The notes under the pieces are model-generated. The model had not been told where the DNA came from. It worked only from the letters and a program-made list of their open reading frames with translations, and searched no databases. From contig NZ_AP025688.1 of the NCBI RefSeq assembly GCF_023168325.1, positions 3,782,001-3,846,000 on the forward strand: DNA of 64,000 nucleotides. The letters run 5' to 3'. Source of the DNA: Tsukamurella sp. PLM1. Lineage in GTDB: Bacteria; Actinomycetota; Actinomycetes; Mycobacteriales; Mycobacteriaceae. The translations under genes and the position numbers were made by a program. Of this stretch, positions 28,676-45,722 are shown piece after piece. Within the stretch, counting starts at the first letter, position 1; each line of letters begins with the position of its first letter.

Positions 28676-29004
28676 TCATCGACGTGATCTCCTCGATCCT
28701 GTTCCTGACCGGTGCCGTTTTCGCACTGACCGCGGCGCTCGGGATCATCCGCTTCCCGGACACACTGACCCGGATGCACGCGGCCACCAAGCCGCAGACG
28801 ATGGGCCTGCTGCTCCTGCTGGTCGGCGCGATCCTGCGGATGCACGACTCGGTCGACGTCTGGATGCTGGTGCTGGCCGGCCTGTTCGCGATGCTGACCG
28901 CCCCGGTGGTGGCGCATCGCGTCGGCCGGGTCGCCTACCAGGAGCAGCGCCTGCGTGACCAGACGATCCGGCTCGAGGACATGGAGACGGGCAACCGCGA
29001 CTAA
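28672..29004 (+). CDS. mnhG: Mnh antiporter subunit G
   Basis: A 110-residue subunit: ISSILFLTGAVFALTAALGIIRFPDTLTRMHAATKPQTMGLLLLLVG is the MnhG signature. GTG 28672. Last gene of the antiporter operon; its 3' end overlaps the convergent PLP-enzyme gene by four bases, so the two operons meet with no terminator space. Confidence 0.93.
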   Translation: MIIDVISSILFLTGAVFALTAALGIIRFPDTLTRMHAATKPQTMGLLLLLVGAILRMHDSVDVWMLVLAGLFAMLTAPVVAHRVGRVAYQEQRLRDQTIRLEDMETGNRD

Positions 29005-30008
29005 CCAGGCGTCGGGCGCCCCTCCCAGTGCATCCGCGACCAAGGCAGCTCGATGCCCGACGGGTCGTCCACGAGCCGCGGCCGCATTGGTTCCGCCGGT
29101 TCGGTGTGCTCGGACAGGGCGCGCAGGTAGCGGTGCCCGGTGTCCGGGAGCACCTGCACGGTGGCGTCGACCGGGTCGCCGTGGCCCTGCTCGTACCCGG
29201 CGACGACGTGCCCGGCGCCGGAGGAGAGCCCGGCGAAGAGGGCGTGTTCGCGGAGCAGCCGGTGGGTGCCGGCGCGGGCCACCTCGAAGGACACCCAGTG
29301 GATCACGTCGTAGAGCCCGTGCCGCACGTTGTCGAACGGGATCGACGAGCCGATGCCGGCGATGAGCATGGCGGGGTCCGCCACGTGCTCGGCGCCGAAG
29401 GTGACACTGCCGAAGGGCTGCACCCCGACGAGCTGCACGGCCAGCCCCGCCTCTTCGAGGCCGAGCCGCAGCGCGCCACTGGACACGCCCGAGCCGACGG
29501 GCGCGACGAGCCGCACGGAGGCGACGCCCTCCGCGGCGAGCTGGGCCGCCGCTGCGCGGGCGATGTCCCGGTAGCCGAGGTAGTGCACCGGGTCGTGGTA
29601 CTGCCGCATCCAGTGCAGCGACGGGTCCTGCGCGAGGAGTTCGGTGATGCGACGGACGCGGCGGTCCTGGTCGAGCTTGAGCGAGGCCGACGGCGGCATC
29701 TGCTCGAGTTCGACTCCCAGGGCGAGCAATTGGACACGCAGGCCCTCGTCGATCGTCGTCGATCCGACGATGCGGCACCGCACGCCCGCCTCGTGGCAGG
29801 CCAGGGCCAGGGCGTAGGCGTAGATGCCCGACGAAGAGTCGATGACGGTGCCGCCCGGCCGGACCCGGCCCGCGTCGAGGGCGGCGCGCAGCGCGGCTCG
29901 CGCGGAGGCGACCTTCATCGACTCGAACCGCAGGAGGTACCGGTCGTGCGCGCCGCGGAGGAGTGCCGGACGGCTCAGCGCCTCGGCGATGTGGCCGTGG
30001 ATCCTCAT
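29001..30008 (-). CDS. PLP-dependent fold-type II enzyme, cysteine-synthase/SbnA-like
   Basis: A 335-residue protein of the cysteine synthase family. The likely PLP lysine is in RFESMKVASARAALRAAL, where canonical members have SVKDR. The substrate loop is IDSSSGIYAYALALACHEAG instead of TSGNTGIALA, so Asn and Thr of the loop are replaced. A phosphate loop VGSGVSSGALRLGLEEAG and the family end GIGSSIP...DVIHWVSFEVA...GLSSGAGHVVAG follow. Such enzymes do beta-replacement on O-acetyl- or O-phospho-serine; SbnA uses O-phosphoserine to build a metallophore precursor. The upstream overlapping kinase could supply the phospho-amino acid. Last gene of a seven-gene operon. The product is inferred, not known. 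Confidence 0.8.
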   Translation of the reverse strand: MRIHGHIAEALSRPALLRGAHDRYLLRFESMKVASARAALRAALDAGRVRPGGTVIDSSSGIYAYALALACHEAGVRCRIVGSTTIDEGLRVQLLALGVELEQMPPSASLKLDQDRRVRRITELLAQDPSLHWMRQYHDPVHYLGYRDIARAAAAQLAAEGVASVRLVAPVGSGVSSGALRLGLEEAGLAVQLVGVQPFGSVTFGAEHVADPAMLIAGIGSSIPFDNVRHGLYDVIHWVSFEVARAGTHRLLREHALFAGLSSGAGHVVAGYEQGHGDPVDATVQVLPDTGHRYLRALSEHTEPAEPMRPRLVDDPSGIELPWSRMHWEGRPTPG

Positions 30009-30925
30009 GCGGCTCCGCCGATCGCGATCGGGGCGTCGTCCACGCGGAAGCCCACGGCGCGCACGCGGGTGCAGGTGCGCCGCAGGCGCTCCCGCGGGTG
30101 CTCGCGCTCGAAGAGCAGGCCGGCGACGTTCCCGGAGTGCGCCACCTGGACGCCGAGCGCGTCGCCGCGCTCGGCGGCGGCGATCAGGCGCTCGAGGCCG
30201 GGCTTGTAGTGGCGGGTCTGGTTGAGCAGCGCGCTGCGGGTCGCGACGGCGGCCACGGCGGCGGCGTCCCCGGCGGCGACCGCCCGGCGCAGGCGGGCGC
30301 GCAGGTCCTCGTACTCCCCCACGTCGCCGTCGCCGGTCGTCCGCAGCGTCAGGGTGTCGACGGGGCCGCCGAGCACGCACCGCACCAGCAGCATCGGGGG
30401 CAGCGCGGCTCCGAGGTCCTCGATGACGTGACCGTGCCGGTGCGCGAACAGGATCGGCCGGTCGGCCCACAGCGGGTCGGAGGCCCCCTCCGCGGCGACG
30501 GCGAGCCGCGCGACGGTGTCGGCGTCGAGCTCCACGTCCGCGCAGTCGGCGACGGCGCGGACCGCCGCGAGGACGTCGGCGGTCGAGGAACCCAGCCCCA
30601 GGCCGACGGCCGTCGTCCGCGCGATGCGGAGCTCGCCGCCCGTGCACCCGAGCGCGCCGTTCGCCCGCAGCAGGGCGAGGGTCGCCACGGCCGCGCGGCG
30701 GGCCTTGTCCAGGTCGCGCGTGCCGCCGATCGCCCGAGCACGAACCGCCCCGGACCGGTCCGGGGCGAACGCCGCCACGGATCCGACGGTGCCGATCGGC
30801 ACCGTCACGAGCCCCGGGCACTCGCCCTGGACGTGACAGCGGAACCGGCCCTGCAGGAGCTCGCCGTGGTGGCCCGTGCTCCGTCCCACGCCACGCCCGC
30901 GGGAACCGGTGCGCGGAGCGCTCAT
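30005..30925 (-). CDS. GHMP kinase, PduX-like (amino-acid kinase type)
   Basis: A 306-residue GHMP kinase. The N-terminal GHHGELLQGRF with GLVTVPIG resembles the GxCGELxQG...LVTCPI start of the L-threonine kinase PduX. The ATP loop is AVGLGLGSSTADVLAAVRA, and a C-terminal motif reads QVAHSGNVAGLLFE. PduX makes O-phospho-L-threonine; by position this enzyme may phosphorylate serine, threonine or a related amino acid for the PLP enzyme it overlaps. A role in cobalamin side-chain supply is an alternative. It contains a 22-bp palindrome built from the over-represented word near 30784. ATG 30925 overlaps the MFS stop. Confidence 0.78.
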   Translation of the reverse strand: MSAPRTGSRGRGVGRSTGHHGELLQGRFRCHVQGECPGLVTVPIGTVGSVAAFAPDRSGAVRARAIGGTRDLDKARRAAVATLALLRANGALGCTGGELRIARTTAVGLGLGSSTADVLAAVRAVADCADVELDADTVARLAVAAEGASDPLWADRPILFAHRHGHVIEDLGAALPPMLLVRCVLGGPVDTLTLRTTGDGDVGEYEDLRARLRRAVAAGDAAAVAAVATRSALLNQTRHYKPGLERLIAAAERGDALGVQVAHSGNVAGLLFEREHPRERLRRTCTRVRAVGFRVDDAPIAIGGAA

Positions 30926-32127
30926 CCGACGGCCTCCGCGGTGCGGGCGCCGCGCAGTGCGCGCCGGGCGAAGACGGCGGCCAGCGCCGTGGCGCCACCC
31001 AGGACGAGGCCGACGCCCGTCCAGCCGCCGAGCGCGAGGGCGCCGCCGGCGAAGGAGGCGCCCGCGAAGACGCCGACGCTCTGCGCGGCCCCGTTGAGCG
31101 AGAGGACGGTGCCCCGCACCGGTCCCGCGCCCCGCACGAGGGTGGTGGTCACCGCGGCGGCGATGACGGCGTGCGAGGCCGAGACCAGGGCGACCATCGG
31201 CCATGCGACGGCGACGTGGGGCGCGGTGTAGAGGGCGACCATCGCGACGGCGGCGACGAGGATCGCGGCGAGTACCGTGCCGAGCAGGCGGTCCGGCCCG
31301 CGGTCCTGCATCACCCTGCCGCCCAGGAAGTTCCCGAGGAAGAAGGCGAGGCCGGAGGTGGCCCACACGAGGGAGAACCAGCCCGTCCCGATCTCGAAGC
31401 GCTCACCGAAGGCGGCGGCGATGTACGCCAGAGACCCCATGAAGGCGAGGGTGCGCAGGAGCGAGACGGCCAGGGTGTCCAGGGCGCCGGGGATCGACCG
31501 GACGGTGCGGAAGGCCTGGAGGTAGCTCACAGAGGTGTTCCCGCCGCGCGGATCGCGACGGCGGGCGATCAGCGCCGCGACCACGAGCAGCACCACGGCG
31601 GTCGCTGCCATGTCGGCGCGCCAGCCCCACAGCACTGCGGGCAGGGCCAGGACCGGCGCCGCGAGGACCGCCGTCAGCGTCATGGTCGAGGAGACGAGGG
31701 TCGCGGCCCGCGCTGAGGCCGCCGGTGAATCGAACCGGTCGGCGGCCATCGCGGACACCGCCGGGTTGAGGACGGCCGTGCCGGCGCCGATCAGCAGGCA
31801 GAAGGCGATCCAGGCGACGGTGCTGCCCTGGAGCGCGAGCCCGCAGCCCAGCGCGAGGACGAGCAGCGCGAGCGCCGCCACCGACGAGCGCGAGAGCCGG
31901 TCGAGCAGGGGCGCGGCCGCGACTCCGACCAGCAGGGCCGCGCCCCCGCCGAGGCCGCGCAGGCCGCCGATCAGGTCGACTCCCGCGTGCGCGTCGGCGG
32001 CGATGGCCACGAGGAAGTTCGCCATGATCGTGAACGGCACCAGCCCCAGCGCGGCGGCCGCGAGCATCGGCCAGATCGCGCGGACGAGTACCCGATCGGA
32101 CAGGGGGCGGTCCTCGGTCGCGCTCAT
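30922..32127 (-). CDS. MFS transporter, putative exporter
   Basis: A 401-residue membrane protein with twelve hydrophobic segments of major facilitator type (LVPFTIMANFLVAIAADAHAGV at helix 1, GWRADMAATAVVLLVVAALIARRRD mid-protein, LAFFLGNFLGGRVMQDRGPDRLLG in the second half). It lies between the DUF364 and kinase genes, with four-base overlaps on both sides. Small-molecule export (for example of a product of the two enzymes) is inferred from context; the substrate is unknown. Confidence 0.8.
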   Translation of the reverse strand: MSATEDRPLSDRVLVRAIWPMLAAAALGLVPFTIMANFLVAIAADAHAGVDLIGGLRGLGGGAALLVGVAAAPLLDRLSRSSVAALALLVLALGCGLALQGSTVAWIAFCLLIGAGTAVLNPAVSAMAADRFDSPAASARAATLVSSTMTLTAVLAAPVLALPAVLWGWRADMAATAVVLLVVAALIARRRDPRGGNTSVSYLQAFRTVRSIPGALDTLAVSLLRTLAFMGSLAYIAAAFGERFEIGTGWFSLVWATSGLAFFLGNFLGGRVMQDRGPDRLLGTVLAAILVAAVAMVALYTAPHVAVAWPMVALVSASHAVIAAAVTTTLVRGAGPVRGTVLSLNGAAQSVGVFAGASFAGGALALGGWTGVGLVLGGATALAAVFARRALRGARTAEAVG

Positions 32128-32930
32128 GCCCGGCCCCGGTAGAGGTACATCGGGGAGGCGTCGGCGGAGAACTGCGAGAACGGGAAGTGCTCCGCGGAGA
32201 GCGCGGTCAACCCGGCGCCGAGGAAGGAGCGCGCGACCGCGGCGCCGCTCTGCGCGTACACCGCGAGCGGCACGCCGCGCTCCCGGCAGGCCGCGAGGAT
32301 CTCGTCGAAACTGCCGTTGCCCAGGGTCATCCCGGTCGCGAGCACCGCGTCGGCCTCGGCGAGCACCGCGCGGTGGTCGTCCGCGACGGGGTCGCCCCAG
32401 TGGGTCCGCTCCAGGTTCCGGTCCGCGAGCAGCGGTTCCGCGCCGCGCTCGCGGATGGCGGCCACCAGGGGATTCACCACGCCGATCAGCGCGACGCGCG
32501 TCCCGGGGGCGACGGCGAGCAGCTCGGCGACCGCGGCGTCACGGGCGACGGCCCGGACGTCGGGGGTGCCGGTGGGCAGCGTCCGGAGCTCGGCGCGCGG
32601 GTCCTCCCGGTGCGGCGCCGCGGCACCGAGCGCGGCGTCGGCGGCGGCGATCCGCAGGGGCTGCGCGGCGTGGTCGAGCAGTCCGGCGAGGGGCTCGCCG
32701 GACAGGTCCGCGACGTCCGGGTCGAGCTCGCCCTCCTCGAAGGCGCAGGCGCCGAAGGAGTCTCCGACGCGGACGAGGACGTAGCGGTTGCGGTACCGCT
32801 GGTCGCTGCCGGCGAGGCGGGTCCCGTGCGCGACGAAGAAGACACTGCGGGCGACCGCGTCGTCCGCGACCGCGCGCGCGAGATCCACGACGTCGGCGAC
32901 GGATTCGGGGGCGGGGCCGGGTGCGGTCAT
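32124..32930 (-). CDS. DUF364 (putative heavy-metal chelation) Rossmann-like protein
   Basis: A 268-residue protein. The N-terminal part (residues 1-110: RSVFFVAHGTRLAGSDQRYRNRYVLVRVGDSFGACAFE) resembles the DUF4213 partner domain. The C-terminal part (GTRVALIGVVNPLVAAIRERG, DRNLERTHWGD, ADAVLATGMTLGNGSFDEIL) is the DUF364 domain, named for its proposed metal-chelation role and often found near FecBCD-like transporters. Biochemistry is unproven in the family. It overlaps both neighbours by four bases, immediately downstream of the substrate-binding protein. Confidence 0.75.
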   Translation of the reverse strand: MTAPGPAPESVADVVDLARAVADDAVARSVFFVAHGTRLAGSDQRYRNRYVLVRVGDSFGACAFEEGELDPDVADLSGEPLAGLLDHAAQPLRIAAADAALGAAAPHREDPRAELRTLPTGTPDVRAVARDAAVAELLAVAPGTRVALIGVVNPLVAAIRERGAEPLLADRNLERTHWGDPVADDHRAVLAEADAVLATGMTLGNGSFDEILAACRERGVPLAVYAQSGAAVARSFLGAGLTALSAEHFPFSQFSADASPMYLYRGRA

Positions 32931-33928
32931 CGGGCCGCCCCACTCTGCTCCAGGTAGTCCGCGAGCGCCGCGGCGGCGTCGAGGTTGCGGGGGCCGGCGA
33001 CCAGCTCGGCGTAGTCCACCACCCGAATGCGGTTCTCCCGCACCGCGGGCGAGTCCTTGATCGGCGACGACTGTCGCAGGTAGTCGATCTTCTGCTGCGC
33101 GGGCTGCTTGTCGTAGTCGACGATGACGATCACCTCCGGCTGGGCCTGCACCACCGACTCCCAGCCGACCGAGGTCCAGCGGCCGTCCACGTCGTGCGTC
33201 ACGGAGCGCCCACCGGCCAGGGAGACCACCTGGTCGGCGGCGGCGCGGCGGCCCGCGGTGTACGGCTCCGCCGTCCCCGAGTCGTAGACGAACACCGACG
33301 GTTTCACGCTCTTACGGTCGGCGCGTTCCTGCAGTGCGCTCTCGCGGGCCCGCAGGCCGTCGACCAGCTTCGCCGCGCGGTCCGGCACGCGGAAGATCGC
33401 GCCGAGGTTGGTGAGGTCGGTGTACGTGTCGGCCAACGGGTTCGCCGCCCGCGCGGCGGGCTTGTCACCGTAGTTGTAGCAGGTCTCCTCCTGCATGTAG
33501 CTGTCGATCCGCAGCTTTCCGAGGGACTCCGGGGTGACGCCTCGGGCGGGGCTGAAGCCGGCCTGCCAGCCCGCGAACACCCAGTCCGCCTCGGCGGCCA
33601 CGAGCGGTTCCTGAGTGAGGACGCCGTCGCTGAGGATCGGGACCTTGGCGTACTCATCGCGGTACGGGGACTTCGCGATCACGCCGTGCACCGTCTTCGG
33701 CAGGACGATGCCCTTGATGCGGTCGGTGAGCCCGAGTGCGAACATCTTCTCGATCGCCGAGACGTCGTAGGGCACCGCGGCGGTGGGCGATCGGTACTGC
33801 TGGTGCACACCGCAGTTGGTGACGTCGACGAGGTCCGTCGTGGGTTCGGCGGGGCGGGCGCCGCAGGCGGTGCCGGCGAGCAGGGTGCTCGCCGCGAGGG
33901 CCGCGGCGAGCAGGGGACGGGGGTGCAT
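32927..33928 (-). CDS. ABC transporter substrate-binding lipoprotein, FecB/siderophore type
   Basis: A 333-residue exported protein: MHPRPLLAAALAASTLLAGTAC gives a signal peptide with a lipobox-like cysteine. The mature domain has the FecB fold: VSAIEKMFALGLTDRIKGIVL, EADWVFAGWQAG, NLGAIFRVPDRAAKLVDGL and VGWESVVQAQPEVIVIVDYD. It should bind a metal chelate or cobamide outside the cell and deliver it to the permease encoded upstream. ATG 33928. The 28-bp gap to the ATPase gene is the only gap in this operon. Confidence 0.85.
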   Translation of the reverse strand: MHPRPLLAAALAASTLLAGTACGARPAEPTTDLVDVTNCGVHQQYRSPTAAVPYDVSAIEKMFALGLTDRIKGIVLPKTVHGVIAKSPYRDEYAKVPILSDGVLTQEPLVAAEADWVFAGWQAGFSPARGVTPESLGKLRIDSYMQEETCYNYGDKPAARAANPLADTYTDLTNLGAIFRVPDRAAKLVDGLRARESALQERADRKSVKPSVFVYDSGTAEPYTAGRRAAADQVVSLAGGRSVTHDVDGRWTSVGWESVVQAQPEVIVIVDYDKQPAQQKIDYLRQSSPIKDSPAVRENRIRVVDYAELVAGPRNLDAAAALADYLEQSGAAR

Positions 33929-33956
33929 CGGTCGATCCTTTCGATCGGTCGGGGTT

Positions 33957-34705
33957 CTACAGTTCGAAGCGGATGCGCGGCGGGCCGGACGACCCGGCGG
34001 CGATCACCGGCCGCACGCCGTAGACCTCGCCGATCCGGTCCGCCGTGAGGACCTCGGCCGGGGTACCGGCGGCGGCGACGCGCCCACCGTCGAGGAGTAC
34101 GAGGCGGTCGCAGCTCTGCGCGGCGAGGTCGATGTCGTGGATGGCGGTGACGGTCGTCTTGGTGGTCGCCCGCAGCAGGCGCAGCAGGTCCAGCTGGTGC
34201 CGGACGTCGAGGTGGTTGAGCGGCTCGTCGAGCAGGAGGACCGGCGTGTCCTGCGCGAGGGCGCGCGCGATGAGGATGCGTTGCCGCTCGCCGCCGGACA
34301 GCCCCAGCACGCTGCGGTGCCGCAGGTGGGTGGCGCCGACCGCGGCGAGCGCATCTTCGCAGGCCCGCGCCGCGACGGCGCTGCCGGCGTCGCCGTGCGC
34401 GAACCGGCCGAGCATGACGGTCTCACCCGCAGTGAAGCCGAGGTGGCCGGCCTCGCTCTGGGTGACCGCGGCGACGCGGCGGGCACCGTCGCGGCGGCGC
34501 AGCGCGCCGAGCTCCGTGCCCCGATCCGCACGGAGCCGGAGGCCGGGGTGATCGCGCGGTACAGGCAGCGCAGCAGGGTCGACTTGCCGCTGCCGTTGGG
34601 CCCGATCAGCCCGACGTGCGCGCCCGCGGCGATGTCGAGGGAGATGTCGTGGAGCACCCGGCTTCCGCCCAGGTCGACGGTGATCCGATCCAGTTCGACC
34701 CTCAT
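33957..34705 (-). CDS. ABC transporter ATP-binding protein, FecE/siderophore type, one frameshift
   Basis: An ATPase of about 249 residues. Walker A is GPNGSGKSTLLRCLYR, the signature LSGGERQRILIARALAQ, Walker B VLLLDEPLNHLDV, then the switch TAIHDIDLAAQSCDR, all typical of iron-chelate and vitamin B12 importers. The frame breaks at CCCC 34519-34522; one base restores RIGGTELGALRRRDGARRVAAVTQ. ATG 34705 overlaps the permease stop by four bases. Confidence 0.88.
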
Positions 34706-35775
34706 GCCGCGCCGCCCAGGAGCCCGCCGCGGCGCCGGAGGAGGACGACGAAGACGGGGACGCCGACGAGCGCGGTGACGATGCCCAGCGGCAGCTCGCG
34801 CGGCGCCACCACCAACCGGCTCAGCAGGTCCACCCACACCAGCAGCAGCGCGCCGACGAGCGGGGCGAGCAGCAGCACCGCCCGGTGAGCCGGGCCGACG
34901 ATCAACCGTACCGCGTGCGGGACCACGAGGCCGACGAAGCCGACGGTGCCCGCGACCGCGACGAGGACCGAGGTCATGACCACGATGACGACGAACAGCA
35001 TCCGCCGGGCGCGGTGCGGATCGAGGCCGAGGGCGGCGGCGGCCTCGTCGCCCTGGGCCAGGACGTCGAGGACGCCCGCGAGGCGCCCGGTGATCGCGGC
35101 GCAGACCGCCACCGTCGCCGCGACGAGCGGGAGCACGGACCACTGCGCTCCTCCGAGACCGCCGAGCAGCCAGAACATCACCGAGCGCGCGGCGTCGCCG
35201 ACCGGATCGAAGAAGACGATCGCGCCGGCGAGGCCCTGGAAGGCGAAGGCGAGCACCACCCCCGTGAGCACCAGCCGGACCGGGCTGAGGGCACCGTCGG
35301 ACGTGCGGCTGAGCAGGTAGACGAGGAGCGAGGCGAGCACCGCCGTCGCGAAGGCCGCCCCTGCGGTCCCGGCGATACCGAGGCCCGCGACCAGTCCGGT
35401 GGTGACCACGAAACTCGCGCCCACCGAGGCGCCGCTGGAGATCCCGAGGATGAAGGGATCGGCCAGCGGGTTGCGCACCAGCGCTTGACACGCGACGCCG
35501 GCGGTCGCGAGGCCCGCCCCGACGAGGGCGGCGAGCAGCACGCGCGGGACCCGCAGGTCCCAGAGGATCGCGTAGGTCGACGCGTCCTCGCGGGCGAGAG
35601 TTCCCCCGGTCAGCGCGACCCAGAGGAGGCGGCGGACGTCGCCGACCGGCACCGTCGCCGCGCCCTGCGAGACGGCGAGGGCCATCGACACGACGAGGAC
35701 GACGGCGAGGACTCCGGCCGGCAGCAGCGGGGAGAGCGAGGCGCCGGCACGGCGGCCGACCGAGGTGGTGAACAC
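34702..35775 (-). CDS. ABC transporter permease, FecCD/BtuC type
   Basis: A 357-residue permease and first gene of the seven-gene operon. FecCD marks: LRVPRVLLAALVGAGLATAGVACQALVRNPLADPFILGISSGASVGA near residues 74-120 and GTVGFVGLVVPHAVRLIVG near residue 280. Only one permease gene is present, so a homodimer is expected. GTG 35775 has no visible ribosome-binding site and lies eight bases from a palindrome, suggesting a leaderless or very short-leader transcript under direct repressor control. Confidence 0.9.
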   Translation of the reverse strand: MFTTSVGRRAGASLSPLLPAGVLAVVLVVSMALAVSQGAATVPVGDVRRLLWVALTGGTLAREDASTYAILWDLRVPRVLLAALVGAGLATAGVACQALVRNPLADPFILGISSGASVGASFVVTTGLVAGLGIAGTAGAAFATAVLASLLVYLLSRTSDGALSPVRLVLTGVVLAFAFQGLAGAIVFFDPVGDAARSVMFWLLGGLGGAQWSVLPLVAATVAVCAAITGRLAGVLDVLAQGDEAAAALGLDPHRARRMLFVVIVVMTSVLVAVAGTVGFVGLVVPHAVRLIVGPAHRAVLLLAPLVGALLLVWVDLLSRLVVAPRELPLGIVTALVGVPVFVVLLRRRGGLLGGAA

Positions 35776-35783
35776 GCGACCAA

Positions 35784-35808
35784 GTTAACGAGAATAATTT
35801 TCGTTAAC
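35784..35808. promoter_or_regulatory. 25-bp AT-rich palindrome, candidate Zur/Fur-type operator of the seven-gene operon
   Basis: The half-site GTTAACGAGAAT is followed, after a central A, by AATTTTCGTTAAC's symmetric half: 11 of 12 base pairs match. The core GAGAATAATTTTC resembles GAAAATNATTTTC sites of Zur- and Fur-like metalloregulators. It begins eight bases before the permease GTG on the minus strand and includes TATTCT, a plausible -10 box, so a bound repressor would block transcription. It stands out in DNA of about 70% G+C. The regulator's identity is inference. Confidence 0.7.
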
Positions 35809-35845
35809 AAAGCAGCATGCGGCTATACGTGCATCGACCCCGCGG

Positions 35846-36982
35846 CTACGGCAGGACGAGCTCGTTCGTCACCGACCGCACGACGTCCCGGTACGCGTCC
35901 GTGCTGCACACGCCGCTGGCGACCGCACGCTGCCGCTGGTAAGACGCGCCGTGCCGCGGAATGTCGGCGACGGCCGCCAACTCGCGGGAACAGCCGAGGC
36001 GCGCGGCGATGGGCGCGAGCTGTTCGAGCAGGTCGTCGAGGTCCTCGGTGACCAGGCGCTCGTTGTTCGCGGCGTCCTGAATGATGATGGCGTCCAGGCC
36101 GTACCGGGCCGCGCGCCACTTGTTCTCTTGCACGTGCCACGGCGGGAGCGTCGGCAGGGCCTCCCCTGCGTCCAGCCGCGCATCCAGCCAGACGACGAGG
36201 CAATGGATCAGGGCGACGACTGCCTCGAGCTCCGCGAAGCTGGACATTCCGTCGCAGATCCGCACCTCGATGGTGCCGAGGTGGCACGCGGGCCGGATGT
36301 CCCAGCGGATCTCATTCAGGTGGTCGATGATCCCGGTGGTCTTCTGGTCGTACACGAAGCGCTCGAACTCGCTCCACCGCTCGAACTGGAAGGGCAGGCC
36401 CGCCGTGGGCAGCTGCTGGAACATCATCGCGCGGGTACTGGCGTAGCCGGTGTCGTGGCCGCCCCACATCGGGGAGCTGGCGGAGAGCGCCAGCAGGTGC
36501 GGGTAGTGGTTGAGGAGGGTCGAGATGATCGGCAGCACCTTGTCGCGATGGTTCACGCCCACGTGCACGTGCACGCCCCAGATGAGCATCTGCCTGCCCC
36601 ACCACTGGGTGCGGGCGATCAGCTCGTCGTAGCGCGGATTGTCGGTGAGCTGCTGCGCGTTCCACTGCGCGAACGGGTGGGTGCCCGCGCCGAACAGGTC
36701 GACGCCCATCGGGTCGGACGTCTCCCGCACCGCTCCGATGATGCGGGCCAGATCGGCCATCGCCTCCGCGGTGTTCTCGCAGACGCCGGTCACCACCTCG
36801 ACGGTGTTGCGCAGCATCTCGGAATGCACCTGCGGCGCGATGTCCGGGTGCGCCGCACGGATCCCGTCGAACAACTCCCCGGCCCTACTGACCAGGTCCG
36901 CGGTCTCCCGGTCGACGAGGGCGAACTCCCACTCGACGCCGATCGTCGGCCGCGGCGACGCCTCGAAGGCGACGGTCTCGAT
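35846..36982 (-). CDS. Glutamate-cysteine ligase-like carboxylate-amine ligase (YbdK/GCS2), start unclear
   Basis: An ATP-dependent ligase of about 378 residues, equivalent to Rv0433. Motifs: PRPTIGVEWEFALVD, LRNTVEVVTGVCENTAEAM, FGAGTHPFAQW, QMLIWGVHVHVGV, ASSPMWGGHDTGYAS and HLGTIEVRICDG. The family couples glutamate to an amine; the partner here is unknown. The conserved N-terminal strand lies upstream of the first standard in-frame start codon (TTG 36874). Reading upstream gives IETVAFEASPRPTIG, with no ATG, GTG or TTG before the sodC stop. A lost base or a non-standard start (ATC at 36982) is implied. It follows sodC by two bases. Confidence 0.85.
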   Translation of the reverse strand: METVAFEASPRPTIGVEWEFALVDRETADLVSRAGELFDGIRAAHPDIAPQVHSEMLRNTVEVVTGVCENTAEAMADLARIIGAVRETSDPMGVDLFGAGTHPFAQWNAQQLTDNPRYDELIARTQWWGRQMLIWGVHVHVGVNHRDKVLPIISTLLNHYPHLLALSASSPMWGGHDTGYASTRAMMFQQLPTAGLPFQFERWSEFERFVYDQKTTGIIDHLNEIRWDIRPACHLGTIEVRICDGMSSFAELEAVVALIHCLVVWLDARLDAGEALPTLPPWHVQENKWRAARYGLDAIIIQDAANNERLVTEDLDDLLEQLAPIAARLGCSRELAAVADIPRHGASYQRQRAVASGVCSTDAYRDVVRSVTNELVLP

Positions 36983-42964: not shown

Positions 42965-43012
42965 TGCCGATCCCCTGAAGTCTCCTCGGTCGTGCGTTAC
43001 GCTCGGTAGCGC

Positions 43013-45722
<2,710 letters not shown>

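Follow-up and report, generated by a model that had tools for sequence, protein, structure and literature searches.

Few zinc ligands are known from actinobacteria. A review names, in the part available to us, coelibactin, ethylenediamine disuccinate (EDDS) and a cluster of Mycobacterium avium subsp. paratuberculosis as zinc- or Zur-controlled. According to the available parts of the sources cited here and below, EDDS is controlled by Zur and made without a non-ribosomal peptide synthetase (NRPS) or an NRPS-independent siderophore (NIS) synthetase (PMC4993170). In the staphyloferrin B pathway the serine kinase SbnI feeds SbnA, a beta-synthase acting on O-phosphoserine (PMC12414870), and aspergillomarasmine A (AMA) synthase makes, on its own, a strongly zinc-binding aminopolycarboxylate from O-phosphoserine and aspartate (PMC8319579). 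For proteins of the DUF364 family, a neighbourhood with metal ATP-binding cassette (ABC) transporters and a role in making chelators, proposed in 2010, have been described (PMC2954201). Here we analyze a seven-gene operon with an SbnA-like enzyme and a DUF364 protein. It lies in a 64,000-nucleotide stretch (the window) of the 4.39 Mb chromosome of Tsukamurella sp. PLM1 (contig NZ_AP025688.1, positions 3,782,001 to 3,846,000). We consider it probable that the operon is a Zur-controlled zinc-acquisition module, free of NRPS and NIS enzymes, that makes, exports and re-imports a very small zincophore.

Operon layout and operator

The operon and its operator consist of the following features (window coordinates; PLP, pyridoxal 5'-phosphate; MFS, major facilitator superfamily):

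35784..35808, unstranded: Zur-type operator, a 25-base imperfect palindrome (22/25 self-complementary; 15-base core at 35789-35803)
34702..35775, minus strand: FecCD-type permease, 357 amino acids (PF01032, E 8.7e-82; top NCBIfam model TIGR03869, under its cut-off)
33957..34705, minus strand: FecE-type ATPase, frameshifted here (PF00005 on the C-terminal piece)
32927..33928, minus strand: FecB-type binding lipoprotein, 333 amino acids (PF01497, E 5.5e-13)
32124..32930, minus strand: DUF364 protein, 268 amino acids, conserved partner of the PLP enzyme
30922..32127, minus strand: MFS transporter, 401 amino acids, presumed exporter (PF07690, E 2.7e-24)
30005..30925, minus strand: GHMP-fold small-molecule kinase (PF00288, E 9.8e-10; PF08544, E 4e-5)
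29001..30008, minus strand: SbnA-like fold-type II PLP beta-synthase, 335 amino acids (PF00291, E 6.5e-27)

All seven genes have Pfam matches over the cut-offs (FecCD, ABC_tran, Peripla_BP_2, DUF364, MFS_1, GHMP_kinases_N/C and PALP). Their order, from 35775 down to 29001, and their coordinates are as an initial annotation of the letters alone had given them. The same holds for the exact four-base overlaps at five of the six junctions (the sixth, FecE-FecB, is a 28-base gap) and for the metal-box-like palindrome, which proves to be of Zur type. That annotation also listed a FecE ATPase. The gene is indeed present, but its frame is broken: it starts at 34705 and ends at 33957, and a frameshift near 34.52 kb separates it into two pieces (~34520-34705 and 33957-34520). 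Its length is no multiple of three and it has a stop codon inside. In all 11 operon-bearing congeners both parts share one frame. The window's genome has a completeness score of 83.88%, while its 15 congeners score 93-100%, so the frameshift may be an assembly error, though it is indistinguishable here from a real mutation.

On the plus strand the palindrome reads GTTAACGAGAATAATTTTCGTTAAC, and the predicted GTG start of the FecCD gene follows 8 bases further on. Judged by sequence comparison, the operator is a Zur-type box: of the 11 positions specified in the Zur motif of Streptomyces coelicolor (tGaNNatSatNNtCa; PMC5472717), its core agrees with 8, the deviations being at the central base and the two outermost positions. 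The pattern YGANAATNATTNTCR has two exact sites in the whole genome (none for a reversed-pattern control): one at the operon, the other ~20 bases before the gene for a lipoprotein similar to the zinc metallochaperone AztD (L150:1947-3047; NF038015 E 3e-88, 296 bits, under the curated cut-off of 400). Allowing one mismatch adds two sites. The first lies ~10 bases before an ArsR/SmtB-family gene that is followed by a Fur-family gene (top score against Fur models, under the cut-off), a pair resembling the smtB-zur arrangement of mycobacteria. The second, within a gene for glucose-6-phosphate dehydrogenase, probably matches by chance. At two mismatches there are 72 sites against 11 for the control, so that lone weak matches are uninformative.

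Genome G336, from the same order, carries an EDDS-like operon. The pattern TGANAATNATTNTCA occurs there twice with one mismatch and nowhere exactly (at two mismatches 22 sites, against 12 for the control). One precedes the EDDS-like operon, and the other lies ~15 bases before a frame matching the zinc permease AztB over the cut-off; an AztD match, also over the cut-off, is found ~3 kb further.

Comparison with described systems

The EDDS-like locus of G336 (L209:4597-9411) holds a Zur-type site followed by genes for an SbnB-like protein, a diaminopimelate-decarboxylase-like protein, an SbnA-like enzyme and a multidrug and toxic compound extrusion (MATE) transporter. It is likely an EDDS (aes) locus, an assignment that draws partly on its gene set and Zur-type box. 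The initial annotation had used EDDS as a parallel, and in its logic this stands: like the EDDS system of Amycolatopsis japonicum, as judged from this putative locus, the window combines a Zur-type box, an SbnA-like PLP enzyme and an exporter. The parallel does not extend to the gene set, as the locus in G336 has SbnB-like, decarboxylase-like and MATE genes, whereas the window has a GHMP kinase, DUF364, an MFS protein and its own FecBCD. The two PLP enzymes share 32% identity over 248 residues. Another candidate, the locus that holds the PLP enzyme in the large g57 genomes (L171), was rejected as an EDDS locus: its arrangement is FecBCD-PLP-ATP-grasp and it has no Zur-type box. L209, the likely EDDS locus, is at another place in the same genome.

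The staphyloferrin B system (sbn, Staphylococcus aureus) resembles the route proposed here in that a dedicated serine kinase supplies the beta-synthase, and SbnA is the top PDB relative of the window's PLP enzyme by profile. In contrast to sbn, the operon lacks SbnB-like and NIS synthetase genes, has a kinase of the GHMP type and adds DUF364. Among the seven operon genes, Pfam and NCBIfam searches revealed no SbnB-like dehydrogenase, no PLP decarboxylase and no NIS synthetase, the last as had been noted from the sequence at the outset.

AMA synthase is a PLP-dependent enzyme. It is fungal, unlike the window's, and the likeness considered here is one of described chemistry; we know of no kinase, DUF364 or dedicated transport for it. 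The opine zincophores (staphylopine, pseudopaline) are, like the product proposed here, small NRPS-free zinc ligands under zinc control. They are made by nicotianamine-synthase-like and opine-dehydrogenase enzymes, types that do not occur among the seven genes. As for the DUF364 proteins Dhaf4260 and PH1506, the available part of their account mentions no partnership with an SbnA-like enzyme or Zur (PMC2954201). Most likely the proposed zincophore route differs from the known ones.

Conservation of the gene set and the box

From a scan of named genomes, which gave 416 PLP enzyme relatives, we retained the best 80 for study; 49 of these have DUF364 within 2.5 kb of the PLP gene. Within 9 kb, FecCD is found in 45 of the 49 loci and FecB likewise in 45; 44 have the kinase, 24 the MFS type of the window and 47 either of two MFS types. 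The loci are spread over Tsukamurella, Corynebacterium, Rothia, Kocuria, Curtobacterium, Austwickia, Actinopolyspora, Pseudonocardia, Thermocrispum, Amycolatopsis, Prauserella, Nocardiopsis, Streptomyces and others.

Separate searches with the kinase, DUF364 and PLP enzyme as queries in 397 genomes of the order give the same impression. Every close DUF364 relative (31/31) lies at most 3.5 kb from a close PLP relative, with the kinase beside both in 24 of these cases, and 33 of the 34 close kinase relatives are found within the same distance of a PLP relative. Remote kinase relatives are mostly located elsewhere (just 2/23 near a PLP relative). No other gene accompanies the PLP enzyme as constantly as DUF364, to which the initial annotation had given no role; only 31 of the 48 close PLP relatives, however, have a close DUF364 relative. 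The co-occurrence of kinase, PLP enzyme and DUF364 next to FecBCD, put forward as a check when the operon was first annotated, is thus found, and close relatives of the two enzymes share a neighbourhood rather than sitting in unrelated contexts.

The gene set is patchy, as DUF364 of the operon's kind (E up to 1e-20) is present in only 6 genomes of a phylum-wide draw of 396. In a quick tree of the PLP enzymes, our only source for their history, the loci lacking DUF364 group mainly in a single clade of 27, which is embedded among loci that have it. The simpler history is therefore that DUF364 was lost or exchanged, the root being uncertain. In the literature searched (mostly open-access) no description of this gene set was found among the matches listed.

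The operator recurs together with the genes. Of 78 loci, 37 have a box matching at least 10 of 12 positions upstream of their first operon gene; among random windows drawn from the same loci, some of which may themselves hold true boxes, the figure is 26 of 1560. Counted within 7.5 kb, a box accompanies 45 of the 49 loci whose PLP gene has DUF364 close by and 2 of the 25 without it (6 of the 80, being shorter than 9 kb, were left out); the Fisher p value of 5e-13 overstates the case, because related loci are not independent. In two loci (L037 and L055) the box counted sits away from the operon start.

PLP enzyme, DUF364, kinase and importer

The top curated model for the PLP enzyme is TIGR03945 (SbnA), with E 5.6e-32 and 111 bits against a cut-off of 349.95. 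When a profile of nine relatives is compared with the PDB, SbnA structures come out on top with cysteine synthases next, and CmnB is among the neighbours. For SbnA, Arg132, Tyr152 and Ser185 have been reported as the residues selecting O-phosphoserine (PMC12414870). The first two correspond to R117 and Y137 of the window enzyme and are kept in 82 of 82 sequences, as is K32. Two cysteine synthases in the alignment have a gap at the arginine position, and the EDDS-like enzyme of G336 keeps the arginine and has a histidine at the tyrosine position. The conservation of R117 and Y137 supports an O-phospho amino acid as substrate, although it falls short of proof.

DUF364 (PF04016) scores over the gathering threshold. 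Its predicted two-domain fold matches 3l5o (Dhaf4260) and 3npg (PH1506) over 215-216 residues, at 14 and 21% identity respectively. The kinase, called PduX-like by the initial annotation, has only general GHMP matches in Pfam and, in NCBIfam, matches to homoserine, mevalonate and archaeal shikimate kinase models, all under the cut-off. For the FecB protein the NCBIfam matches are TIGR03868 (E 1.3e-47) and the siderophore-binding EitA (E 2.2e-26), both under the cut-off, and BtuF (E 9.6e-11).

Proposed mechanism

From these data we infer the substrates, the order of reactions, the product, the metal and the role of DUF364 as follows. Zur would repress the operon when zinc is plentiful. Upon derepression the GHMP kinase would phosphorylate a free hydroxy amino acid; in the likeliest case it would turn L-serine into O-phosphoserine. 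From this the SbnA-like enzyme would eliminate the phosphate and add an amino acid, for example aspartate or glutamate, as the amino nucleophile, giving a diaminocarboxylate. DUF364 might carry out the next step (condensation, hydrolysis or ring closure) or handle the metal-ligand complex. The MFS protein would then export a small ligand of the aminopolycarboxylate type, and FecB-FecCD-FecE would return the zinc complex to the cell. Because SbnB-like and decarboxylase genes are absent, the beta-replacement product itself, or a form modified by DUF364, would be the ligand, as with AMA. On balance, the product is probably an aminopolycarboxylate built from O-phosphoserine.

The initial annotation had read the operon as a small-metallophore system. 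This reading gains support from the co-localization of the genes across genera, the Zur-type operator, the first rank of SbnA by profile and the retention of R117 and Y137. Going one step further, DUF364 could be an enzyme of a third metallophore route free of NRPS and NIS, with the SbnA-like beta-synthase and DUF364 as a minimal zincophore module in at least two diverged lineages, one of them combining it with a GHMP kinase and FecBCD as here, the other with an ATP-grasp ligase; we put this forward tentatively, rating its chances at slightly under even. If true, this would assign a first reaction to DUF364, a domain of known structure since 2010 but of no known function. Genera sharing the gene set include Tsukamurella, Rothia, Kocuria, Corynebacterium, Actinopolyspora and Streptomyces, usually with an importer and exporter of its own, and the predicted product is small enough to be made with purified enzymes. 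The operon also offers a tight handle on the DUF364 family.

Several observations weigh against the zincophore module. The window box scores 10/12, below the best boxes, and that of the congener locus L037 only 9/12. Lacking an SbnB-like and a decarboxylase gene, the operon cannot copy either the staphyloferrin B or the EDDS pathway. Queried singly against the PDB, the window's PLP enzyme has a mycobacterial cysteine synthase as its top match (E 9e-16), with SbnA further down (4.5e-13), and the position of SbnA Ser185 is taken by Gly172 in 82/82 sequences. No close DUF364 relative accompanies 17 of the 48 strong PLP relatives in the order, and some of the loci lacking DUF364 adjoin ATP-grasp or methyltransferase genes and have no Zur box. 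The FecE gene carries a frameshift in the window assembly. Finally, the kinase is undetected near 5 of the 49 named loci (two of which, L068 and L083, are near a contig end) and at 7 of the 31 order-level loci, and is therefore not obligatory.

Alternative explanations

A dispensable kinase fits O-phosphoserine better than O-phosphothreonine, as central metabolism also supplies the former. This bears on the strongest of the alternatives, in which the same system acts on threonine and O-phosphothreonine leads to a ligand of the 2,3-diaminobutyrate type. PduX is a GHMP kinase that acts on free threonine, and the conserved residues of the PLP enzyme do not tell serine from threonine. Yet the loci without a detected kinase are explained more easily if the substrate has a second source, and the profile neighbours include the O-phosphoserine enzyme SbnA together with CmnB. 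We regard the threonine variant as unlikely.

Alternatively, the product might be a siderophore for iron or another metal, with zinc control being secondary. Importers of the FecBCD type are best known for iron-siderophores, the siderophore binder EitA is among the model matches of FecB, and related FecBCD-PLP loci occur without a Zur box. On the other hand, no IdeR-type box was found in the window or in the 11 scanned related loci lacking DUF364, whereas a Zur-type box is present in the window and its relatives, which makes this explanation somewhat less plausible still.

That the PLP-kinase pair makes something other than a metallophore (an amino acid antibiotic or a precursor) and adjoins the importer by chance appears very improbable. 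In other clusters, relatives of the PLP enzyme are indeed found together with ATP-grasp ligases, methyltransferases and an NRPS; against this, FecCD stays within 9 kb in nearly all loci with PLP enzyme and DUF364, in many families, and the Zur-type box goes along with the gene set.

Least of all do we favor the salvage of cobalamin or cobinamide, named as an alternative by the initial annotation, with O-phosphothreonine serving for aminopropanol beside a corrinoid importer: PduX and the presence of BtuCD-F among the FecBCD relatives speak for it, but the window has no cobalamin riboswitch at Rfam thresholds, the BtuC and BtuF models score under the cut-off and below other models, the operon's PLP enzyme is of the PALP type while CobD-type decarboxylases have the aspartate-aminotransferase fold, and a Zur-type box precedes the operon.

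Insertion of the operon

Besides the window's genome, the operon is carried by 11 of its 15 congeners, named Tsukamurella species being among the congeners. Four lack it, and three of these (G008, G009 and G015) were compared at the insertion point; the contig of the fourth (G007) ends there. In the three genomes 34 to 124 bases separate the flanks, with a block of ~6.8 kb absent: the match with the window runs to ~29003 and picks up again at ~35842-35855. The placement of the operon as an insertion between the equivalents of Rv0435c and Rv0433, made on first inspection, is thereby borne out, and since the flanks are joined in 3/3 cases the operon comes and goes as a single unit. A PHROGs search gave no useful match.

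Related clusters and other observations

A second putative zincophore family was encountered (L223-L242). All 20 loci fetched (from 31 found) have DUF364 adjoining an SbnA-like PLP enzyme of another subfamily, although the match in L234 is partial. An ATP-grasp gene is present in 15 of the 20, and in 9 (L229, L232, L235-L240 and L242) a Zur-type box lies close before it. Locus L035 is of the same type.

Other loci (L171, L172, L174, L177, L098 and L115) have the arrangement FecCD-FecE-FecB-PLP without DUF364, kinase or Zur-type box, an ATP-grasp gene being next in L171, L098 and L115. These possibly encode a metallophore under another regulator. In L032 (6180-9287, genome G022) a PLP relative of 57-58% was found with none of the other operon genes detected in its vicinity; two frames lying upstream gave no match to Pfam.

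An extra protein is encoded near the PLP gene in 12 of the 49 loci (L053, L080, L091, L093 and others). By eye it is similar to S-adenosylmethionine-dependent methyltransferases, with an NPPA motif, and the one scanned has no Pfam match. Loci L093 and L173, where the kinase is undetected, have a further protein without assignment beside the PLP gene. Elsewhere in the window, a thiamine pyrophosphate riboswitch, the only riboswitch at Rfam thresholds, is located at 43009-43120 on the plus strand (55.2 bits, gathering threshold 54.3).

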